Under the pieces are notes generated by a model that saw only the letters and a program-made list of their open reading frames with translations, did not search any database and had not been told where the DNA came from. The position numbers and the translations under genes were made by a program. Positions 971 to 24,562 of a DNA stretch of 43,402 nucleotides are shown here, in pieces (positions within the stretch are counted from its first letter, which is position 1; each line of letters begins with the position of its first letter). The DNA is from Candidatus Bathyarchaeota archaeon (GTDB lineage Archaea > Thermoproteota > Bathyarchaeia > 40CM-2-53-6 > FEN-987). The stretch is taken from assembly GCA_022865625.1 (NCBI GenBank), contig JALHTB010000109.1, positions 1-43,402 of the forward strand, given 5' to 3'.

Positions 971-2350
971 ATGAGCTCCTCGTCAAAGCCTGACTGGGTA
1001 AGGGCGAAAGCCCCCTTGGGACCAACCTATGCGCGGCTCAAGGAACTGACAAAACAATACTCACTTCATACTGTATGTGAGGAGGCTCACTGCCCTAATG
1101 TTGGAGAGTGCTGGGGCAGCGGCACCGCGGCCTTCATGATAATGGGAGAACTCTGTACGCGCGCTTGCAGATTCTGCAACGTGAAGAACGGCAAACCGAA
1201 CGGCATCTTGGACCGCGAGGAGCCTGCAAACGTCGCAAGAGCCGTCAAGGATCTGGGGCTGAAGTATGTTGTGTTGACTTCTGTTGACCGTGATGATTTA
1301 TCGGACGGTGGAGCGTCACATTTCGCCCAAACGATCACCGCCATCAGAAGCAGCGCTCCCGATGCGCACATCGAAGCATTGATTCCTGATTTTCAGGGAA
1401 GCGCCAAAGAAATCAAAACAGTGGTTCACGCGCGTCCTGACGTGATTGGCCACAACCTCGAGACTACCGAGGCACTAACCCCTAGGGTGAGAGACCCGAG
1501 GGCCAAGTATCACCGCTCACTCAAGGTCCTCGAACATGTGAAACGACTAGACCTACGGATCTTTACCAAGTCGTCACTCATGCTCGGGCTGGGTGAGCAA
1601 GAAGACGACGTTCTACAGACGATGCGTGACCTTCGGAGTGTCGACACAGACTTCCTAACGTTGGGTCAGTACCTCAGACCTTCACCACGCAACCTTCCCG
1701 TCGTCGAATATGTCGCACCTAAGCGGTTCGACTACTATCGAGCTAAGGCCGAGCAGATGGGGTTCCGCTACGTCGCCTCCGGTCCGCTGGTTCGCAGCTC
1801 TTATCGGGCAGGAGAGCTCTTCCTCTCCAACATTATCGGACGGACTCGCCGACAAACCTCTCGAAACGAGGAAAAAAGCCTCATGGATCTGAACTTCAGC
1901 TGGGTGATTGAAGACGAAGTCGCCGGATCAAGAGGCCCACGCTCGAAGTCTGACCTCATCTCGTTGAAGAAGCAAGGCATTGGTGCCCTAGTGAGACTCG
2001 TCGAGGCAGATGAGGCCTACATCACAGCCGACGACGTTCGCGAAACCGGACTAGAGGACTACAACGAGCCAGTTCCCGACTTTCACGCGCCTACAGACGC
2101 GCAGATCGACAAGATCATCGAATACATAGACACCCATGTCCAAGCAGGCGTCCCAGTCGATGTCTCATGCTACGCAGGGATCGGCCGGTCTGGTGTCGTG
2201 TTGGCTTGCTATCTGGTGCACAGAGGCTACAGTGCGAAGGACGCCTTGGAGCTTGTCCGCAGAAGGCGGGGCAGAGGTCCAGAAGTGTCAGTGCAGATCG
2301 AAGCGGTCGAAGCCTACTGGCGTAGAATCAATTCCGTCCCCAACCACTGA
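971..2350 (+). CDS. lipA: lipoyl synthase fused to a dual-specificity-phosphatase-like domain
   Basis: 459 residues from ATG 971 (a GTG at 968 directly precedes it). Residues 1-295 are a complete lipoyl synthase, the radical SAM enzyme that inserts two sulfurs into protein-bound octanoyl groups. The auxiliary-cluster cysteines are Cys36, Cys41 and Cys47 (CEEAHCPNVGEC), the SAM cluster is Cys62, Cys66 and Cys69 (CTRACRFC), and the terminal RSSY motif is at 275-278. Residues 305-459 continue in frame into a DUSP23/cysteine-phosphatase-like domain starting MDLNFSW. It has a candidate general acid Asp370 and the P-loop CYAGIGRSG (Cys400, Arg406). The usual histidine before the cysteine is Ser399. 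An internal ATG at 1883 with GAGG upstream could allow separate translation of the second domain. The junction contains a run of six A, so a sequencing indel should be excluded. The 3' end overlaps the convergent neighbour by 23 bases. Confidence 0.9.
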   Translation: MSSSSKPDWVRAKAPLGPTYARLKELTKQYSLHTVCEEAHCPNVGECWGSGTAAFMIMGELCTRACRFCNVKNGKPNGILDREEPANVARAVKDLGLKYVVLTSVDRDDLSDGGASHFAQTITAIRSSAPDAHIEALIPDFQGSAKEIKTVVHARPDVIGHNLETTEALTPRVRDPRAKYHRSLKVLEHVKRLDLRIFTKSSLMLGLGEQEDDVLQTMRDLRSVDTDFLTLGQYLRPSPRNLPVVEYVAPKRFDYYRAKAEQMGFRYVASGPLVRSSYRAGELFLSNIIGRTRRQTSRNEEKSLMDLNFSWVIEDEVAGSRGPRSKSDLISLKKQGIGALVRLVEADEAYITADDVRETGLEDYNEPVPDFHAPTDAQIDKIIEYIDTHVQAGVPVDVSCYAGIGRSGVVLACYLVHRGYSAKDALELVRRRRGRGPEVSVQIEAVEAYWRRINSVPNH

Positions 2351-4355
2351 GATACATGGTAACTTGGTCAGGGTCGCTCACTGAGACACGAATCGATTCT
2401 CTCCGAAGGGCCGTCCATTGCACGCTCGGATTCTCCATAGCAGTGAATTGAGGCTCAATGAGAGAATCTTGGCTCTTTCCGTCAACCTGCTTGATGTGTT
2501 GGTCGAAGAAGCCGGCGATCATCTTCGTGATCTCCGCACGACTTGGACTGATCCGTCCGCCTGCTGGTGCGAACCCATGTCCCGCATTCTTGACTATCAC
2601 GAGCGTCGCAGGCACATGAGCCCCAATCAGCACCTTGTAGAACTCCTGCGACTGACTTAGCGGAACCAGAGCGTCCTTCTCCCCGTGTAGGATGAGGAAT
2701 TGCGGATCATCGCTCGTAACGTAGGTCACTGGACTAGCACGCTTCAGTATCTCAGCGTTTGAATCTGTAACACCGAACACTTGCTGTAGGATTTGCGGGT
2801 TGGCACCGCTAAAGATCTGTGTCAGATCGGTGGGACCAAACATGTCCACCACAGCTTGGACACGACTCGATTCATCAGCATATCCTCCCGAACCTTCGAA
2901 TCCAGCGCTCGGATCGGTTACTCCCAACAGTGAGACAAGGTGACCACCGGCGCTACCACCCCACGCTCCGATACGCTCCGAATCTATGCCATACTTCTCT
3001 GCGTTGGCTCGCAGGAAACGAATAGCGCACTTGACATCTTCGATCTGAGCCGAGAACTTGTACTGCGGTGCCAGACGGTAGTTTATGGCCGCGACGAAGT
3101 ACCCACGCTTGACGAGTTCGCGAATATCGAGACTGCCTGCTCCAGAGCCCTTGTTCCCCTTGGTCCAACCCCCGCCATGAACGTATACGAGCACCGGCTG
3201 AGGCTTCTTGTCAGTCGTGGGGTAGTAGATGTCCATTTTCAACTGAACACCGTCTACGGTGCAGTAGGTAGCATCACGCTCGACTTTGCTCGCTTGATCA
3301 ATCGAGACGCCGCTATTGCGTGGGTCGACGCCAGGATGAGTCTTCTCCCATCCTGCGAAATCATCAGCCATCTGCGAGAAAGTCGCCCACCGGACTTTGC
3401 CAGATACAACAAGTGGATTGACGACTTCTGCTAGGAAACGGTCAACAACCGAGTAGGGGTGTGCTGGGTCACCACGGAATTCTCCCGGATGGATAGTGAT
3501 GTGGAAGACATTGACTCTGTCTGGTTGTGCGGCGTCCAGTGAGCGCTCGAGGCTTTCTTTGATGAAGTCGAAGTATGCTTGGTCGCCTCCCTTCGCTATC
3601 ATCTGTCGCTTCGCTGCAAAACCTTGAGGATCGTAGGATCCATCCGGGAGGAAAACGATCTTCCCTTGCGGGTCATGCTTCGCAAAGAGAACGAGGCTGT
3701 TCTCAGTTGGCCCGCCTGCGGGACGCCACGGATCGACTCCTACAACAAGTGCGTCAGTCTGTTGAGTGTGCGGGTTCTTCCAATCGCTCATCACGTCTAG
3801 ACCCGCGAGCGCAACCGCATCCAAGATTCCCGGGTAGAGATTGCCTCCACTCCAGTACAGGACTTTCGTGGCTCCAGCCTGCTTGATGTACGAGATTTCC
3901 TGAGACATCGCTTCGGCCCAAGTCTCAGCTGGGAGAGCCTCGGGGTTCTGTCCCAAGTGAGCCTCTTCATGGAAGTGAAGGGCAATCTCATGGCCGTGCG
4001 CTTCAAGATCCGCAAACAAGGTCTCCCTGGACTGAATCGCCATGAGCGTGAAAGGCGTCTGTGCTTGAACTGTGAGTACTCCTCCATACTTCTCGGCCAT
4101 TCCAGCCAACATTCGGATGTCTTCAACGTGATGCTGGAAGAACACTTTCTGATTGTATTCTCCCAATGGTTCGATGTGTATCCCAATTCCGAAAAGTAGC
4201 ACGGGCTCTGCTGAATTCTCTGCGGAATTCCCGTCCAATGCCATCAAATAGGGAATGGATCCCATGTAGACTGCGTATGTGGCGCCCGCAAGAACAAGAG
4301 TCACGATCATGATCGCGATCAGTGTCTTCCGTATCGTCATTCCAGCTTTCTCCAT
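2328..4355 (-). CDS. exported polysaccharide-deacetylase-like / alpha-beta hydrolase fusion
   Basis: 675 residues from ATG 4355; ATG 4340 (residue 6) is a good alternative because GGAG lies about 10 bases before it. A hydrophobic N-terminal helix (residues 10-31) indicates a signal anchor or export signal. Residues 50-340 resemble a divergent deacetylase-type barrel: GHEIALHFHE at 121-130 recalls the metal-binding HxxxH motif, but the usual aspartate pair of motif 1 is not evident. Residues 360-640 form an alpha/beta hydrolase of the BD-FAE/hormone-sensitive-lipase type: oxyanion HGGG 393-396, nucleophile elbow GGSAGG with Ser468, Asp561 and His593. Together they suggest an extracytoplasmic enzyme that removes acyl or acetyl groups from a carbohydrate or similar polymer; substrate unknown. 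The hydrolase half is assigned with high confidence, the first half with less. Confidence 0.8.
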   Translation of the reverse strand: MEKAGMTIRKTLIAIMIVTLVLAGATYAVYMGSIPYLMALDGNSAENSAEPVLLFGIGIHIEPLGEYNQKVFFQHHVEDIRMLAGMAEKYGGVLTVQAQTPFTLMAIQSRETLFADLEAHGHEIALHFHEEAHLGQNPEALPAETWAEAMSQEISYIKQAGATKVLYWSGGNLYPGILDAVALAGLDVMSDWKNPHTQQTDALVVGVDPWRPAGGPTENSLVLFAKHDPQGKIVFLPDGSYDPQGFAAKRQMIAKGGDQAYFDFIKESLERSLDAAQPDRVNVFHITIHPGEFRGDPAHPYSVVDRFLAEVVNPLVVSGKVRWATFSQMADDFAGWEKTHPGVDPRNSGVSIDQASKVERDATYCTVDGVQLKMDIYYPTTDKKPQPVLVYVHGGGWTKGNKGSGAGSLDIRELVKRGYFVAAINYRLAPQYKFSAQIEDVKCAIRFLRANAEKYGIDSERIGAWGGSAGGHLVSLLGVTDPSAGFEGSGGYADESSRVQAVVDMFGPTDLTQIFSGANPQILQQVFGVTDSNAEILKRASPVTYVTSDDPQFLILHGEKDALVPLSQSQEFYKVLIGAHVPATLVIVKNAGHGFAPAGGRISPSRAEITKMIAGFFDQHIKQVDGKSQDSLIEPQFTAMENPSVQWTALRRESIRVSVSDPDQVTMYLSGWGRN

Positions 4356-12793: not shown

Positions 12794-13276
12794 ATGAAGC
12801 GTATGGTGAAATTCCAAGTCAACGGTGAACAGACAGCGATCGATGCGGAACCGACGAAGACTCTGCTAGATGTACTCAGAGAGGATCTGTTCCTTACTGG
12901 CACGAAACGCGGATGCGATAGCGGTGAATGTGGCGCCTGCACTGTACTCTTGAACGGCCAAGCAGTGCACTCTTGCCTCATATTGGCTGCTGAATTGGAA
13001 GGACAAGATGTGCTAACGATTGAGGGCCTTTCAAAGAATCCGAAGGAACTTCATCCTCTTCAGAAAGCGTTCATCGAGAAAGGCGCCGTTCAGTGTGGTT
13101 TCTGCACACCAGGACTGATGATGTCGGCGAAGGCACTGCTTGACAGGAATCCGAATCCAACCGAAGAGGAAGTCAGGCACAGTATATCCGGCAACTTGTG
13201 TCGCTGCACTGGATATAGCAAGATAGTTGACGCGATCCTCACGGCTGGCGAGGAGATCCGGGGGAATAGCCAATGA
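12794..13276 (+). CDS. molybdenum hydroxylase 2Fe-2S subunit (CoxS/XdhC-like)
   Basis: 160 residues from ATG 12794. The plant-ferredoxin-type cluster is bound by Cys41, Cys46, Cys49 and Cys61 (CDSGECGAC...C). The second cluster, near molybdopterin, is bound by Cys101, Cys104, Cys136 and Cys138 (CGFC, CRC). All eight ligands are present and the length is normal. It relays electrons from the molybdenum site to FAD. Its stop overlaps the start of the large-subunit gene by four bases (ATGA), indicating coupled translation. Confidence 0.95.
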   Translation: MKRMVKFQVNGEQTAIDAEPTKTLLDVLREDLFLTGTKRGCDSGECGACTVLLNGQAVHSCLILAAELEGQDVLTIEGLSKNPKELHPLQKAFIEKGAVQCGFCTPGLMMSAKALLDRNPNPTEEEVRHSISGNLCRCTGYSKIVDAILTAGEEIRGNSQ

Positions 13277-16682: not shown

Positions 16683-18515
16683 CTAGGCGAGACCTAGAGA
16701 CTTCAGTTTCTCTTGGGTTGGTACTCCTTGTTCGTCCCATCCACGCATCTTGTAGTAGTTGTCAAGCATTCTGTTTACATCAAATGTCTGTCCTTTCGAG
16801 TTGCCGTCGGGCATTGGTTCCAAGAATCGATCTGGGAGGTTGTCATCCATACGAGTGTATCCTTCTCTGATGTTGAAGAGCCTCTCAAGGTTCACTATCC
16901 GTTCACCGACTCTTACCATGTCCGCGTAGCTTCGCTTCATCCCAGTTGCCTCACGCATCAGTCTCTCAACCACTTCGGGGCTGAATCCGAAGTCTAGGCA
17001 GAAGTCACAGAACACGGCCGAGTCGATGGGTGCTGCCGTCGAATCCTGGAAGTCGATTACCCACTTCACCTTGCTTGGATCCTCTGCGAATCTGTCCACC
17101 TGCTGGGGCATCCCGAAGAGTTCGACTGCGATGGTCCATCCATCATTGTGGTCTGCACCCCGAGATGCCGTCGCATAGTTCAAGCCTATGCCCTTGGCGC
17201 CTCTTGGATCGTAGCCAGGCATCTCGAGACCCTTGACGTGCATAGCATACTTCCAAGCATTGCCGCCCAGTCTCTCGGCAGCGATCTTGACGCCTTCTGC
17301 TAGGATGTCTCCTACGCTTTCTCTGTGTGCTATCTTTTCCATAAGCCACATTAGCGCATCTTCGCTTCCGAAGTTGAGCTTCATTCCGCCTGTCTGCTTG
17401 TCAGTTATGATTCCTCTCTCGTAGCACTCCATTGCAAAGGAAGCGACGACGCCAGCTGAGATCGTGTCCATGCCGTACTTGTCACAGAGCAGGTTTGCGT
17501 GTGCTATCGCCTCAAATGATGATACTCCGCAGTTCGAGCCGAGAGCGAAGATGTTCTCATGTTCAGGTCTGTCTGTCCTAACGCCGGCGTGCTTTCCTTC
17601 CTTAACGTCGACCCACTTTGAGCAGAGCACTCGGCATCCCCAACAGTGGACGAACCCCTTGACGGGGTAGTGACTGTTGATGTAGTCAGAATCGATACTC
17701 TTTCCACTCTCGAAGTAGCCGGTCTGGAAGTTTCTAGTAGGCATCAGACCCATCTCATTCACCACAGAGACGGATCCAGTAGTCCCAGCTTGATTGAAGA
17801 TCTTCACAACTTCGTTGCTGTCAACTATCTTTCCTATCCAGTCGAGCGTTTCTTTCCAAGTGTTCTTGTCGACGTGTGTCTCGACTCGCCCTGAGCCGGA
17901 TACGGCGAAGGCTTTGAGGTTCTTCGAACCCATCACTGCTCCTGGACCGCATCGTGCCCCCGCTGCGTGTTGATCGCTCATAATTGAGGCGAATCGGACC
18001 GACTTCTCGCCCGCTGGGCCAATGGAAGCCACTCTCGCCTTCGAGCCGACTTCTTTCCTGACAAGTTCCTCGGTCTCGTGTGTCGTCTTGCCCCAAATGT
18101 GTCCGGCATCCTTCAGGTCCAGTTTGCCGTCCTCGAGGTAGGCGTAAACTCTCTTCTTCGATGCGCCCTCGAATACTACTCCGTCATATCCAGCGAACTT
18201 GATGTTCGGGCCAAAATGCCCTCCACAGTAGCTGACTGAGATTGTGCGCGTCAGCGGAGACTTCATGCCGACAGTATACTTGCCGGTCAGCGGAACTCCG
18301 GTGCCCGCCAGCGGGCCTGTCATGAAAATCAGCTTGTTCTCAGGTCCAAGCGGATCAGCCCTAGGGGCAAGTTCATCATGCAGAATCTTCGCGATGAAGC
18401 CCCTTCCGCCGATCCATTTCTCGGCGAAGTCATTCTCGATCTTTGTCTCAGAAGTCTTTCCACGACTTAGGTCAACGCGTAGGATCCTGCCAACATACCC
18501 TTTGTAGTCAACCAA
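16683..18515 (-). CDS. aor: aldehyde:ferredoxin oxidoreductase (tungsten), copy 1
   Basis: 610 residues from TTG 18515. The start is supported by the conserved opening GYVGRILRVDLSRG at residues 6-19. The [4Fe-4S] ligands are Cys291, Cys294 and Cys298 (HCWGCRVLC), with the distal ligand most likely Cys503 in DSAVFCDFC. Tungstopterin contacts such as GPAGE (167-171), RCGPGAVMGSKNLKA (188-202) and DPRGAKG (436-442) are intact. The enzyme oxidises aldehydes to acids and reduces ferredoxin, in the cytoplasm. It is divergent from a second AOR across 138 bases. Full length for the family. Confidence 0.94.
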   Translation of the reverse strand: MVDYKGYVGRILRVDLSRGKTSETKIENDFAEKWIGGRGFIAKILHDELAPRADPLGPENKLIFMTGPLAGTGVPLTGKYTVGMKSPLTRTISVSYCGGHFGPNIKFAGYDGVVFEGASKKRVYAYLEDGKLDLKDAGHIWGKTTHETEELVRKEVGSKARVASIGPAGEKSVRFASIMSDQHAAGARCGPGAVMGSKNLKAFAVSGSGRVETHVDKNTWKETLDWIGKIVDSNEVVKIFNQAGTTGSVSVVNEMGLMPTRNFQTGYFESGKSIDSDYINSHYPVKGFVHCWGCRVLCSKWVDVKEGKHAGVRTDRPEHENIFALGSNCGVSSFEAIAHANLLCDKYGMDTISAGVVASFAMECYERGIITDKQTGGMKLNFGSEDALMWLMEKIAHRESVGDILAEGVKIAAERLGGNAWKYAMHVKGLEMPGYDPRGAKGIGLNYATASRGADHNDGWTIAVELFGMPQQVDRFAEDPSKVKWVIDFQDSTAAPIDSAVFCDFCLDFGFSPEVVERLMREATGMKRSYADMVRVGERIVNLERLFNIREGYTRMDDNLPDRFLEPMPDGNSKGQTFDVNRMLDNYYKMRGWDEQGVPTQEKLKSLGLA

Positions 18516-18653
18516 AGTCCAATCAGCTCGACTGCTCTTGCGCAGCTAGGGCACGCAGAGAAGCCTTAATGCTTTCGTAGTGAGTTTGATCGATCAGGAC
18601 TGACGGAAACTCGCGAACCATTGAGACTAACTAGTAGTAATTAGCGGCGTGGC

Positions 18654-20594
18654 TTGTCTCGAAGCAACGTCGAAACCATTAAACACAATACGCGTGTAAG
18701 TCCCGATATCCTTGCAGGGAAGATCCAAACCTTGGAGTTCGGAGGATACTCAGGCAACATTCTGAGGATCGACCTTTCTACACAGACTGCTCGGAATGAG
18801 CCACTGAAGAAACATGACGTGGAGAGATTCGTCGGAGGAAGAGGACTTGGATGCTACTACCTCTTCAAGGAAGTCGACCACAGAGTCGGACCACTCAGCC
18901 CAGCCAACAAGCTCTTCCTCACCACCGGACCACTGACAGGTACATTTGTTCCCACCTCAACGAGATTCGTCGTTATAACCAAGTCTCCACTGACAGGAAT
19001 CTACTGTTTCTCGGTTTCCAGTGGCGAATTCGGACCCATGATGAAGCGGGCAGGATGCGACATGATCATCCTGGAGGGAAAGGCCGCAAAGCCGACCTAC
19101 CTCATAATCGACGACGGCAGCGCGCACTTCCAGGACGCGGCGTCTCTGTGGGGTCTGCCCACATTTGAGACATCGAGAGTGCTTCGCGAATCTCACGGCT
19201 ACGCCTTCAGCACGATCCAGATAGGACCGGCCGGCGAGCGAATGGTGAACCTTTCCGCGATCATAACAGACGATCGAAGAGCTGCCGCGAGGTGTGGCGT
19301 TGGTGCGGTCATGGGTTCGAAGAACCTGAAGGCCATCATGATCAAAGGCAGCGGAGATGTCCCAATAGCAAATCGCGCCGCATATGACAAGGTCCTGCGT
19401 GAAGCATTCTCAGCAATCGCTGCTCAACGTGGTCCATGGAAGGACTTCCCATCGACCGGAACTCAATCCGGAGTCATAAAGAACCAAGGTTGGGGTATCC
19501 TTCCAACCAATAACTGGCGTGACAGTGTCTTCGAGCAAGCGGCAGAGATTAGCTACCCGAAACTGCGAGAAAAGCTTGTGCTTAAGGACAAAGGTTGTCC
19601 ACGCTGCCCTGTTTGCTGCACAAAACTGACTTTGGTCCAAGAAGGCCCGTATGCTGGCGCTAGCACGGACGGCCCCGAATACGAAACCATCTACGCATTC
19701 GGCAGCGCCTGTGGCGTAGGCAAACCCGAACCTATTGTCGCAGCCGACATGATGTGTGATGACTTTGGTCTGGACACAATGTCGACTGGATTGTCAATTG
19801 CTTGGGCGATGGAGAACTTCGAACGAGGCATATTCACCACAAAAGACACAGACGGACTTGATCTTCGATTCGGCAACGATGAAGCAATGGTCCAAACAAT
19901 CCGAAGAATCGCGTACAAAGAAGGTAAACTGGGCACCCTTCTCGGAAAGGGCGTGAGAGAAGCTGCCGAGGAGGTCGGGCGAGGTTCAGAGAAATATGCC
20001 ATGCACGTGAAGGGCTTGGAGCTCGGTGGATACGATCCGCGTGGCTCAAGGGGACAAGCTCTCGTCCTTGCCTGCGGCCCACGAGGCGGATGCCACCACG
20101 CATATGGGGTCGCAGCTTTGGTCGAAATGCCGTCTGGGACAGGGCTCCAGACTGCGGGAAAGGGCAATCTAGTGCGAGACCTAGCGCGTGGCAGAATCCT
20201 CTTCGATTCAGCGCCTATTTGCGCGTTTGTTGGAATGCGTATAGTGCCCCCAATGCTCGGCCAGCTCGTCGAAGCAGCAATCGGCATCGATATGCCAACC
20301 AGCAAATGGCTTGAAGTCGCCGACAGGATCGCAACACTAGAGCGGGCCTATAATGCGAGGGAGGGGCTGACGCGCGAGCATGACACACTGCCAGGGAGAT
20401 TACTCGAAGACCCGGTTAGATCGGGCCCGAATAAGGAACAGGTTGTTTCGAGAAAGGAACTGGAATCGATGAAGAACGACTTCTATCAGTCGATGGGTTG
20501 GGAAATCAAAACAGGGCTTCCGAGTGCGGAGAGGCTACGCTCGCTCCAGCTCGAAGAGGTGGCTGAAGACCTGCAGAAAGCCGGAAAACTGTAG
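18654..20594 (+). CDS. aldehyde:ferredoxin oxidoreductase family protein, copy 2
   Basis: 646 residues from TTG 18654. About 28 extra residues precede the conserved FGGYSGNILRIDLSTQ, so TTG 18732 is a plausible shorter start. Cluster ligands are Cys315, Cys318 and Cys322 in CPRCPVCC (an extra Cys321 lies next to the third), with a distal cysteine in DSAPICAF. GPAGE, RCGVGAVMGSKNLKA and DPRGSRG are conserved. The copy differs clearly from its divergent neighbour in the cluster loop and N-terminus, so the two are old paralogues probably using different aldehydes. The intergenic 18516-18653 must hold both promoters. Confidence 0.92.
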   Translation: MSRSNVETIKHNTRVSPDILAGKIQTLEFGGYSGNILRIDLSTQTARNEPLKKHDVERFVGGRGLGCYYLFKEVDHRVGPLSPANKLFLTTGPLTGTFVPTSTRFVVITKSPLTGIYCFSVSSGEFGPMMKRAGCDMIILEGKAAKPTYLIIDDGSAHFQDAASLWGLPTFETSRVLRESHGYAFSTIQIGPAGERMVNLSAIITDDRRAAARCGVGAVMGSKNLKAIMIKGSGDVPIANRAAYDKVLREAFSAIAAQRGPWKDFPSTGTQSGVIKNQGWGILPTNNWRDSVFEQAAEISYPKLREKLVLKDKGCPRCPVCCTKLTLVQEGPYAGASTDGPEYETIYAFGSACGVGKPEPIVAADMMCDDFGLDTMSTGLSIAWAMENFERGIFTTKDTDGLDLRFGNDEAMVQTIRRIAYKEGKLGTLLGKGVREAAEEVGRGSEKYAMHVKGLELGGYDPRGSRGQALVLACGPRGGCHHAYGVAALVEMPSGTGLQTAGKGNLVRDLARGRILFDSAPICAFVGMRIVPPMLGQLVEAAIGIDMPTSKWLEVADRIATLERAYNAREGLTREHDTLPGRLLEDPVRSGPNKEQVVSRKELESMKNDFYQSMGWEIKTGLPSAERLRSLQLEEVAEDLQKAGKL

Positions 20595-22453: not shown

Positions 22454-22502
22454 TAGGAACTTGTGGGACCGTTTGACAGCTTCCGCACTAGAAGGGGTAT
22501 CT

Positions 22503-23897
22503 GTGGAAAGTCAAGTCGAGAACCTCGTGATTGGGGGCGGCCCCGGTGGATACGTTGCCGCAATAAGGCTCGGGCAACTAGGCCGACAAACAATGGTCGT
22601 CGAGAAAGAGGCACTTGGTGGCGTCTGCCTGAACGTAGGATGCATTCCATCCAAAGCAATAGTACGCGCGGCCAGATTGATGAAGCAGATTCAGAAAGGC
22701 CAGGATTTCGGAATCGAGGCTCCTCAACCCAAGGTGAACCTTCAGAAACTCCAAGCGTGGAAGAAGAGCGTCATTGACAAACTCATCTCAGGAGTCGCAT
22801 ACCTCTGCAGAGGTAACCATGTGGAAGTCATCCAAGGAGAAGCCACGTTCCTGGGCCCTCACCAAGTCCAGATCAGAACCAAAGACGGAACGCGGATCCT
22901 CACCGCACAGAACATAATAGTCGCAACTGGCTCGCGTCCTGTCGAGATCCCTGGATTCAAGTTTGACGGAGATTTCATCATCACAGCGACGGAGGCGCTT
23001 GCATTCACCGAGGCGCCCCGCAGCTTTGTCATTGTTGGAGGCGGCGTGAGCGGACTGGAACTTGGAATGTCATACGCACAATTCGGTAGCAAGGTCACAG
23101 TCATCGAGATGCTCGACCAGCTCCTGCCAGGCGTCGACATCGAACTCGTCAGAGTCGTAGAGCGCACTCTGAAGAAGATGGGCGTGGACACACATCTGAA
23201 GGCTCGTGCCAAATGGGCCAAGGACGGAAAGGTTGCGGCTCAGCTCTCTGATGGAAAAGAGACCGAGATTCCAGCAGACAAAGTGATGGTTGTGGTTGGC
23301 AGGCGTCCGAATTCCGACCAAATCGGACTTGAGACCACAGGCGTGAAGACGAACCAAGCAGGATTCATTGAAGTCAACAAGCAGATGCAAACCAACGTTC
23401 CCGGAATATACGCAATCGGCGATGTCACAGGGCCACCCCTGCTCGCTCACAAAGCATCAAAGGAAGGAATCGTCGCAGCCGAAGTGATATCAGGCCAAGC
23501 GAGCGCAGCCGACTTCAAAGCGATGCCGAGCGCCATCTGGACAGACCCCGAAATTGCAACCGTCGGCCTCACCGAAGCAGAAGCAAAGAAACAAGGATAC
23601 GATCCAATCGTCGGGAAATTCCCGTTTACAGCTCTTGGCCGAGCCATGATAGCCGGCGAGACGGAAGGGTTCGTCAAAGTCGTCGCAGACAAAGAGAGCG
23701 AACAGATACTCGGCATACACATGGTAGGTGCGGACGTGTCGGATCTGATCAGCGAGGCCGCGCTCGCAATCGAGATGGGGGCAACCCTCGACGATCTGGC
23801 GTTGACTGTTCACCCTCACCCGACGCTTCCTGAAAGCCTCATGGAGGCAACCGAAGCAGCCAAGGGCAAGGCAATCCACATACTGAAACCACCATGA
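22503..23897 (+). CDS. lpd: dihydrolipoamide dehydrogenase
   Basis: 464 residues from GTG 22503, chosen because GAAGGGG lies 5 bases upstream; a TTG at 22461 would add 14 residues. FAD-binding GGGPGGYVAA is at 11-20, the redox disulfide GGVCLNVGCIPSK has Cys42 and Cys47, an NAD-binding GGGVSGLELG lies mid-protein, and the C-terminal HPHPTLPESLMEA carries the catalytic His-Glu pair. It reoxidises dihydrolipoyl groups of 2-oxoacid dehydrogenases or the glycine cleavage H protein. No E1, E2 or H-protein gene is in this window. The gene overlaps lipB by four bases, tying it to lipoylation. Confidence 0.95.
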   Translation: MESQVENLVIGGGPGGYVAAIRLGQLGRQTMVVEKEALGGVCLNVGCIPSKAIVRAARLMKQIQKGQDFGIEAPQPKVNLQKLQAWKKSVIDKLISGVAYLCRGNHVEVIQGEATFLGPHQVQIRTKDGTRILTAQNIIVATGSRPVEIPGFKFDGDFIITATEALAFTEAPRSFVIVGGGVSGLELGMSYAQFGSKVTVIEMLDQLLPGVDIELVRVVERTLKKMGVDTHLKARAKWAKDGKVAAQLSDGKETEIPADKVMVVVGRRPNSDQIGLETTGVKTNQAGFIEVNKQMQTNVPGIYAIGDVTGPPLLAHKASKEGIVAAEVISGQASAADFKAMPSAIWTDPEIATVGLTEAEAKKQGYDPIVGKFPFTALGRAMIAGETEGFVKVVADKESEQILGIHMVGADVSDLISEAALAIEMGATLDDLALTVHPHPTLPESLMEATEAAKGKAIHILKPP

Positions 23898-24562
23898 GCA
23901 AGACACTGCTCGTTGACCTGCAGACACGAGACTACAAAGAGACGTTAGAATTACAGCACAGACTCGTGGAACTGCGAGCAGAAGCGCGGCTGCCAGATGT
24001 CTTGCTGCTGGTGGAACATCCACATGTCGTAACCATGGGCAAATCAGCGAAAACCGAGAACATCCTATCCAGGACACTTCCAGTCTACGAGATCGAGCGC
24101 GGTGGAGATGTCACGTATCATGGATACGGTCAGCTGGTTGGATACCCGATTTTGGACTTATCCTCACGGGGCAAGGACATCAGAACATATCTGAGAAATC
24201 TGGAGAAGATACTCATCGAGACACTAGCTCGTTTTGGACTCACAGCACAGAGGATACAGGGCCGGACAGGCGTGTGGGTAGGAGAGAAGAAGATAGCATC
24301 GATTGGCGTTGCCGTTCGCAGTTGGATAACATTCCACGGTTTCGCGCTGAATGTTTCAACCGATCTCTCATACTTTGCCAAGATCAATCCTTGTGGTTAC
24401 CACAGCTCGATAATGACCTCAATGAAAGAACAGCTGGGAAAGGAAGTCTCAATCGCAGATGTCAAAGGGTCTCTCACACCTATCTTCGGAAAGATCTTCG
24501 ACACTGAGCTTGAGATAACCAGCGAAGAAGCACTCAGAAACCTGCTGAAACCCAACTGTTGA
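23894..24562 (+). CDS. lipB: lipoyl(octanoyl) transferase
   Basis: 222 residues from ATG 23894, overlapping the lpd stop (ATGA). It moves octanoyl from acyl carrier protein, or another donor in archaea, onto the target lysine for LipA. The signature ERGGDVTYHGYGQLVGYP spans 68-85. The catalytic Cys167 lies in INPCGY and Lys133 in GEKKIASIG, so the acyl-transfer dyad is complete. Length is normal. With the fused lipA at 971-2350, the window encodes a full endogenous lipoylation route plus the enzyme that reoxidises the product cofactor. Confidence 0.95.
   Translation: MSKTLLVDLQTRDYKETLELQHRLVELRAEARLPDVLLLVEHPHVVTMGKSAKTENILSRTLPVYEIERGGDVTYHGYGQLVGYPILDLSSRGKDIRTYLRNLEKILIETLARFGLTAQRIQGRTGVWVGEKKIASIGVAVRSWITFHGFALNVSTDLSYFAKINPCGYHSSIMTSMKEQLGKEVSIADVKGSLTPIFGKIFDTELEITSEEALRNLLKPNC

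Follow-up and report, generated by a model that had tools for sequence, protein, structure and literature searches.

Lipoyl synthases (LipA) are recognized by three hallmarks, namely the auxiliary-cluster motif CX4CX5C, the radical-SAM motif CX3CX2C and a C-terminal RSSY motif. The assembly of lipoate in archaea is poorly understood: in an excerpt of PMC10332631, archaeal LipB/LipA pairs are called unexpected, because archaea are generally without acyl carrier protein. For the phosphatases of the DUSP23/Tk-PTP group, an excerpt of PMC5965843 names Asp63 and Glu132 as the two acid/base residues of Tk-PTP, and assigns to Glu134 of DUSP23a the main part beside Asp65. Here we describe an archaeal protein in which representatives of these two known families are joined; in agreement with the initial annotation of the locus, the open-access literature that we searched yielded no description of a LipA-phosphatase fusion, and likewise none of a lipA-linked group of Ser-Cys phosphatases or of a phospho-switch acting on the assembly of the lipoate cofactor.

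The window, as we call the whole stretch of 43,402 nucleotides analysed here (Candidatus Bathyarchaeota archaeon, contig JALHTB010000109.1), contains at positions 971-2350 of the forward strand a continuous open frame that encodes 459 residues. Profile and sequence comparison identify a full LipA at the N-terminus, followed in the same frame by a DUSP23/Tk-PTP-like phosphatase (Table 1). The two-enzyme chain is genuine, and the fusion frame is confirmed by the related proteins described below.

Table 1. Coordinates, in the window, of the fused gene's features and of the genes for dihydrolipoyl dehydrogenase and LipB.
Feature	Position	Strand	Evidence
Lipoyl synthase (LipA) domain, residues 1-297	971..1861	+	TIGR00510, phmmer, invariant motifs
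Lost LipA stop, putative site: codon 298 or codon 294	1850..1864	+	relatives' LipA ends
Linker before internal ATG, probably former intergenic DNA	1862..1882	+	sequence, low model confidence, lower conservation
GAGG, candidate ribosome-binding site for internal start at 1883	1868..1871	+	weak, four-base match
DUSP23/Tk-PTP-like phosphatase domain, beginning with the internal ATG (155 codons and a stop)	1883..2350	+	
Phosphate-binding loop V-S-C-Y-A-G-I-G-R-S-G, residues 398-408, with Cys400 and Arg406	2162..2194	+	row conservation
Dihydrolipoyl dehydrogenase	22461..23897	+	TIGR01350, 563.4 bits, cut-off 408.8
Octanoyltransferase LipB	23894..24562	+	TIGR00214, 177.5 bits, cut-off 83.55

Neither a tRNA nor an Rfam match was found within the window, which also encodes a DP2 DNA polymerase, an archaeal enzyme that marks the window as archaeal, and, at 16683-20594, two divergently transcribed proteins that resemble aldehyde:ferredoxin oxidoreductases, as judged by eye from their translations. 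A 675-aa protein encoded at 2328-4355 on the reverse strand has a C-terminal BD-FAE/esterase-like hydrolase domain (PF20434, residues 374-576) preceded by some 365 residues without Pfam match, and is another possible two-domain fusion.

The LipA half matches TIGR00510 over residues 5-288 with 388.1 bits (cut-off 310.25), and human lipoyl synthase (8tsk) with a phmmer E-value of 4.5e-97. All the hallmark motifs are present, and C36, C41, C47, C62, C66, C69 and the RSSY at 275-278 are invariant in an alignment of 47 rows, which bears out the initial reading of a complete LipA with six cluster cysteines and RSSY. In the profile for the LplA-LipA fusion (NF053790) the match covers positions 331-604 of 606, with 380.3 bits against a cut-off of 800: the protein falls outside that family, as the lipoate ligase part is absent and the score is under the cut-off. 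This half would insert sulfur into octanoyl groups attached to target proteins by LipB. The genes for LipB and dihydrolipoyl dehydrogenase, which overlap by 4 nt, lie 20 kb from the fusion, and their presence in the window makes it probable that this archaeon both makes and uses lipoate; given the excerpted statement on acyl carrier protein cited above, a LipB at this locus raises the question of the octanoyl donor.

The catalytic residues of the phosphatase half were studied in 122 rows, consisting of the window protein, the fused cluster P0003 and 120 relatives (the best 120 of 255 hits). Cys400, Arg406 and Asp370 occur in 122/122 rows, Ser or Thr at residue 407 also in 122/122, and Glu438 in 117/122. 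The fold is that of the dual-specificity phosphatases (DUSP23/Tk-PTP group); as in these, the Cys-x5-Arg loop is followed by Ser or Thr (C400, R406, S407), while D370 and E438 align with D63 and E132 of Tk-PTP. The DUSP23-like domain with an intact loop and a candidate general acid that had been proposed for this gene is thus what we find. The residue directly before the catalytic Cys is Ser399 in place of His, and the domain is therefore classed in a related Ser-Cys subgroup, outside the His-Cys group. This substitution had been pointed out as a peculiarity of the protein; it is present, but as a rule of the family (Ser in 120/122 rows) rather than a trait special to the fusion. In other PTPs, loss of the His raises the pKa of the thiolate. 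A match to the Pfam family PTP-NADK (PF22741) scores 29.2 bits (cut-off 27). In the relatives P0122-P0241 the loop typically reads V-S-C-N-A-G-I-G-R-S/T-G, and among the 122 rows the usual Asn after the Cys is replaced by Tyr only in the fused rows and in P0122.

The fusion, again of 459 residues, recurs in two other protein clusters: P0002 is 99-100% identical to the window protein (100% in residues 296-459; 55 members, one source), and P0003 87-88% (88% in residues 296-459; 9 members, three sources). Both have LipA domains, both were treated at the level of the cluster rather than member by member, and they rank first among the listed LipA relatives. The search that yielded these two clusters was scored on residues 296-459, covered proteins whose length is 0.55-1.75 times that of the full chain, and needs shared exact words, so that distant fusions could escape it. 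The same C-terminal extension, which the initial annotation had suggested looking for in LipA homologues, is therefore found in these two clusters. It is absent from the 118 other LipA relatives (best 120 listed of 8000 candidates scored), which are 267-339 aa long and have LipA or radical-SAM domains only; one of them, P0110 (62% identity), is named Nitrososphaerota archaeon. The possibility that all close relatives encode the two proteins separately thus fails for P0002 and P0003, and describes the other listed relatives correctly. The phosphatase-scored search, of which the best 120 of 255 hits were used, returned proteins of 131-181 aa, as its length limits exclude fusions. Among the listed relatives the fusion appears to be local, in one small clade.

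In the LipA tree, which omits 12 of 121 proteins (P0089 and 11 that are short), the fused rows fall into a single clade (100/99), with the nearest unfused LipA weakly placed (86/4). In the phosphatase tree, from which 4 short proteins of the 123 were omitted, P0122 groups with the fused rows (100/97) and is placed among them (95/52). P0122 is 90% identical and is annotated, on a contig of 613 bp, as a separate protein of 155 aa; it has Tyr401 in common with the fused rows, a residue absent from the other 119 phosphatase relatives. It may represent a cut contig, a choice in the start call, or an unfused close relative.

The ends of the separate proteins suggest how the fusion came about. Among 89 clade relatives, LipA ends at window residue 293 in 59 and at 297 in 22 (81/89 together); the closest unfused LipAs among those listed, P0004-P0006 (81-82% identity), end at residue 297, and P0040 and P0056, which the LipA tree places close to the fused clade (83/89), at residue 290. 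Window codons 294 (1850-1852) and 298 (1862-1864) both read CGA, which a single transition separates from TGA. On the other side of the junction, 81/120 listed unfused phosphatases start exactly at window Met305, and 39/120 elsewhere. Taken together, these LipA ends and phosphatase starts point to an ancestor with lipA, its stop, a short gap and an in-frame phosphatase start, in that order: the two genes would have been in the same frame by chance, and a single change would have joined them. The fusion has probably arisen once, and its likeliest origin, judging from protein ends and contig sizes, is that the stop codon of lipA was lost and the gene thereby joined to its neighbour. The lost stop was probably codon 298, as favoured by the closest relatives, or else codon 294, as favoured by most of the clade. 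The former intergenic stretch would now be read in frame, probably as a flexible linker: in a model of the full-length structure pLDDT is <50 for residues 291-321 (the phosphatase half of this model is poor, with a shallow alignment behind it), and identity to P0003 is 63% over residues 288-306, versus 87-88% in the domains.

We have also studied whether lipA and the phosphatase gene are linked where they are separate, using as a proxy for linkage an exact match in bp, rather than in name, between the longest contigs of LipA and phosphatase clusters. The lists comprised the best 120 hits each, every cluster being represented by its single longest contig; the window and fused clusters (P0001-P0003) and P0089 (without contig) were left out, and the chance expectation was obtained by shifting the contig bp values by 1-100 either way. 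Exact matches with one of the 120 phosphatase clusters can be recognized for 17/88 LipA clusters of the clade (>=69% identity), versus a chance mean of 1.24 and maximum of 5. For contigs of at least 3 kb there are 12/47 matches versus 0.21 expected, and below 3 kb 5 pairs versus about 1 expected by chance. In the outer LipA group (<=65% identity) the numbers are 2/29 versus 0.46 expected, and 0/19 at >=3 kb. Both of the outer-group matches are doubtful: at 2828 bp the LipA clusters P0075 and P0108 both meet phosphatase P0228, which leaves the pair ambiguous, and we reject the P0102/P0199 pair (1239 bp) as a chance match, the contig being too short for both genes.

If equal bp values denote the same contigs, the LipA and phosphatase distances should be congruent. 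For the 17 pairs the correlation of paired distances is r = 0.798, a value reached in 0/20000 permutations; when only the five pairs <3 kb are considered it is r = 0.641, which 512/20000 permutations reach. This congruence shows common lineage: the two genes are co-inherited in the archaeal clade and, as contig sizes and protein ends suggest, are apparently neighbours. Their closeness would be read from short contigs, the best case being the 1578-bp contig common to P0020 and P0139, on which the two genes leave no more than 231 nt uncovered; the nearest neighbours of this pair are in agreement. The link between lipA and the phosphatase seems older than the fusion, and a real clue to function. 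No phosphatase-domain match was found by tblastn at E 0.01 in 34 LipA loci that are bacterial by title (532,369 bases, up to 10 kb on each side, so that a distant phosphatase could be missed), and no phosphatase relative in a scan of viral_contigs.

That the fusion is real, that it originated by stop loss and that its phosphatase is active we consider, as a joint statement, quite probable, and each component has an alternative or refinement to be weighed. An A6 run at 1872-1877 lies inside the linker, where an assembly or sequencing artefact in the homopolymer could hide a stop. P0002 and P0003, however, have equal length and frame, and P0003, which comes from other sources, has diverged by ~12% from the window protein in both domains with no indel in the linker; the frame across the run thus holds in two diverged lineages, and we reject an artefact as extremely improbable. 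The phosphatase domain might instead be a non-catalytic phospho-binding module: the three solved relatives with alignments shown have His where the signature loop of the window protein has Ser399. Yet the conservation of Cys, Arg, Asp, Glu438 and the Ser/Thr after Arg is unlike that of a dead enzyme, and makes this reading an unlikely one. With the acid/base pair of Tk-PTP aligned to Asp370 and Glu438, the domain is probably active: Cys400 would accept the phosphate, Arg406 would hold it, and Asp370 and Glu438 would act as acid/base. As to the product, the initial annotation had offered two proteins from one message, the full-length chain and a free phosphatase from the ATG at 1883. This ATG sits at the start position shared by the 81 unfused phosphatases, and is preceded at 11 nt by a GAGG, whose spacing recurs before the start at 12794; GAGG, however, is a match of four bases only, and P0003 has Val at the position of the internal Met. 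We retain the proposal as tentative, somewhat short of an even chance: some free phosphatase may come from ATG 1883.

The preferred reading, an active phosphatase joined to LipA by stop loss, still leaves a choice as to function. The fusion could be a tolerated accident that joined neighbours without functional link, with independent domains and a general role for the phosphatase. Such an accident would be consistent with the low model confidence and lower conservation of the linker, with the limitation of the fusion to one small clade among the listed relatives and with the persistence of a start codon at the old phosphatase start; on the other hand, the gene pair is co-inherited across the clade, and the fusion was kept while two lineages diverged by ~12%. 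We give this explanation a little under an even chance, which is about as likely as our best guess for the target, itself a conjecture of less than even standing, a phosphorylated protein belonging to the machinery that uses lipoate. The earlier suggestion that lipoylation is coupled to a phosphorylated partner draws its support from the linkage of the gene pair, the partner being conjectural. A wider proposal, that the clade controls lipoylation via a dedicated phosphatase encoded beside lipA and joined to it in one lineage, as a phospho-switch on cofactor assembly, is doubtful; if true, a lipoyl-enzyme partner would be dephosphorylated at the very place where sulfur is inserted. That LipA is inherited together with a phosphatase family, and in one lineage is joined to a member of it, points concretely to phosphorylation in the lipoate pathway, and the fusion offers a single protein in which this can be tested.

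These features can be compared with those of known systems. With LipA (TIGR00510; human 8tsk) the window protein shares the complete catalytic chain, including RSSY and the two cluster motifs, and it differs by the phosphatase at its C-terminus. The LplA-LipA fusion (NCBIfam NF053790) is a known fusion that includes LipA, but its partner is a lipoate ligase rather than a phosphatase. With Tk-PTP and DUSP23 (VHZ) the phosphatase domain has in common the fold, the Cys-x5-Arg loop and the two acid/base residues; unlike them, it has Ser before the catalytic Cys and is joined to LipA. PTP-NADK (PF22741) is a phosphatase of the same superfamily described as fused to a metabolic enzyme, in that case a different partner, NAD kinase.
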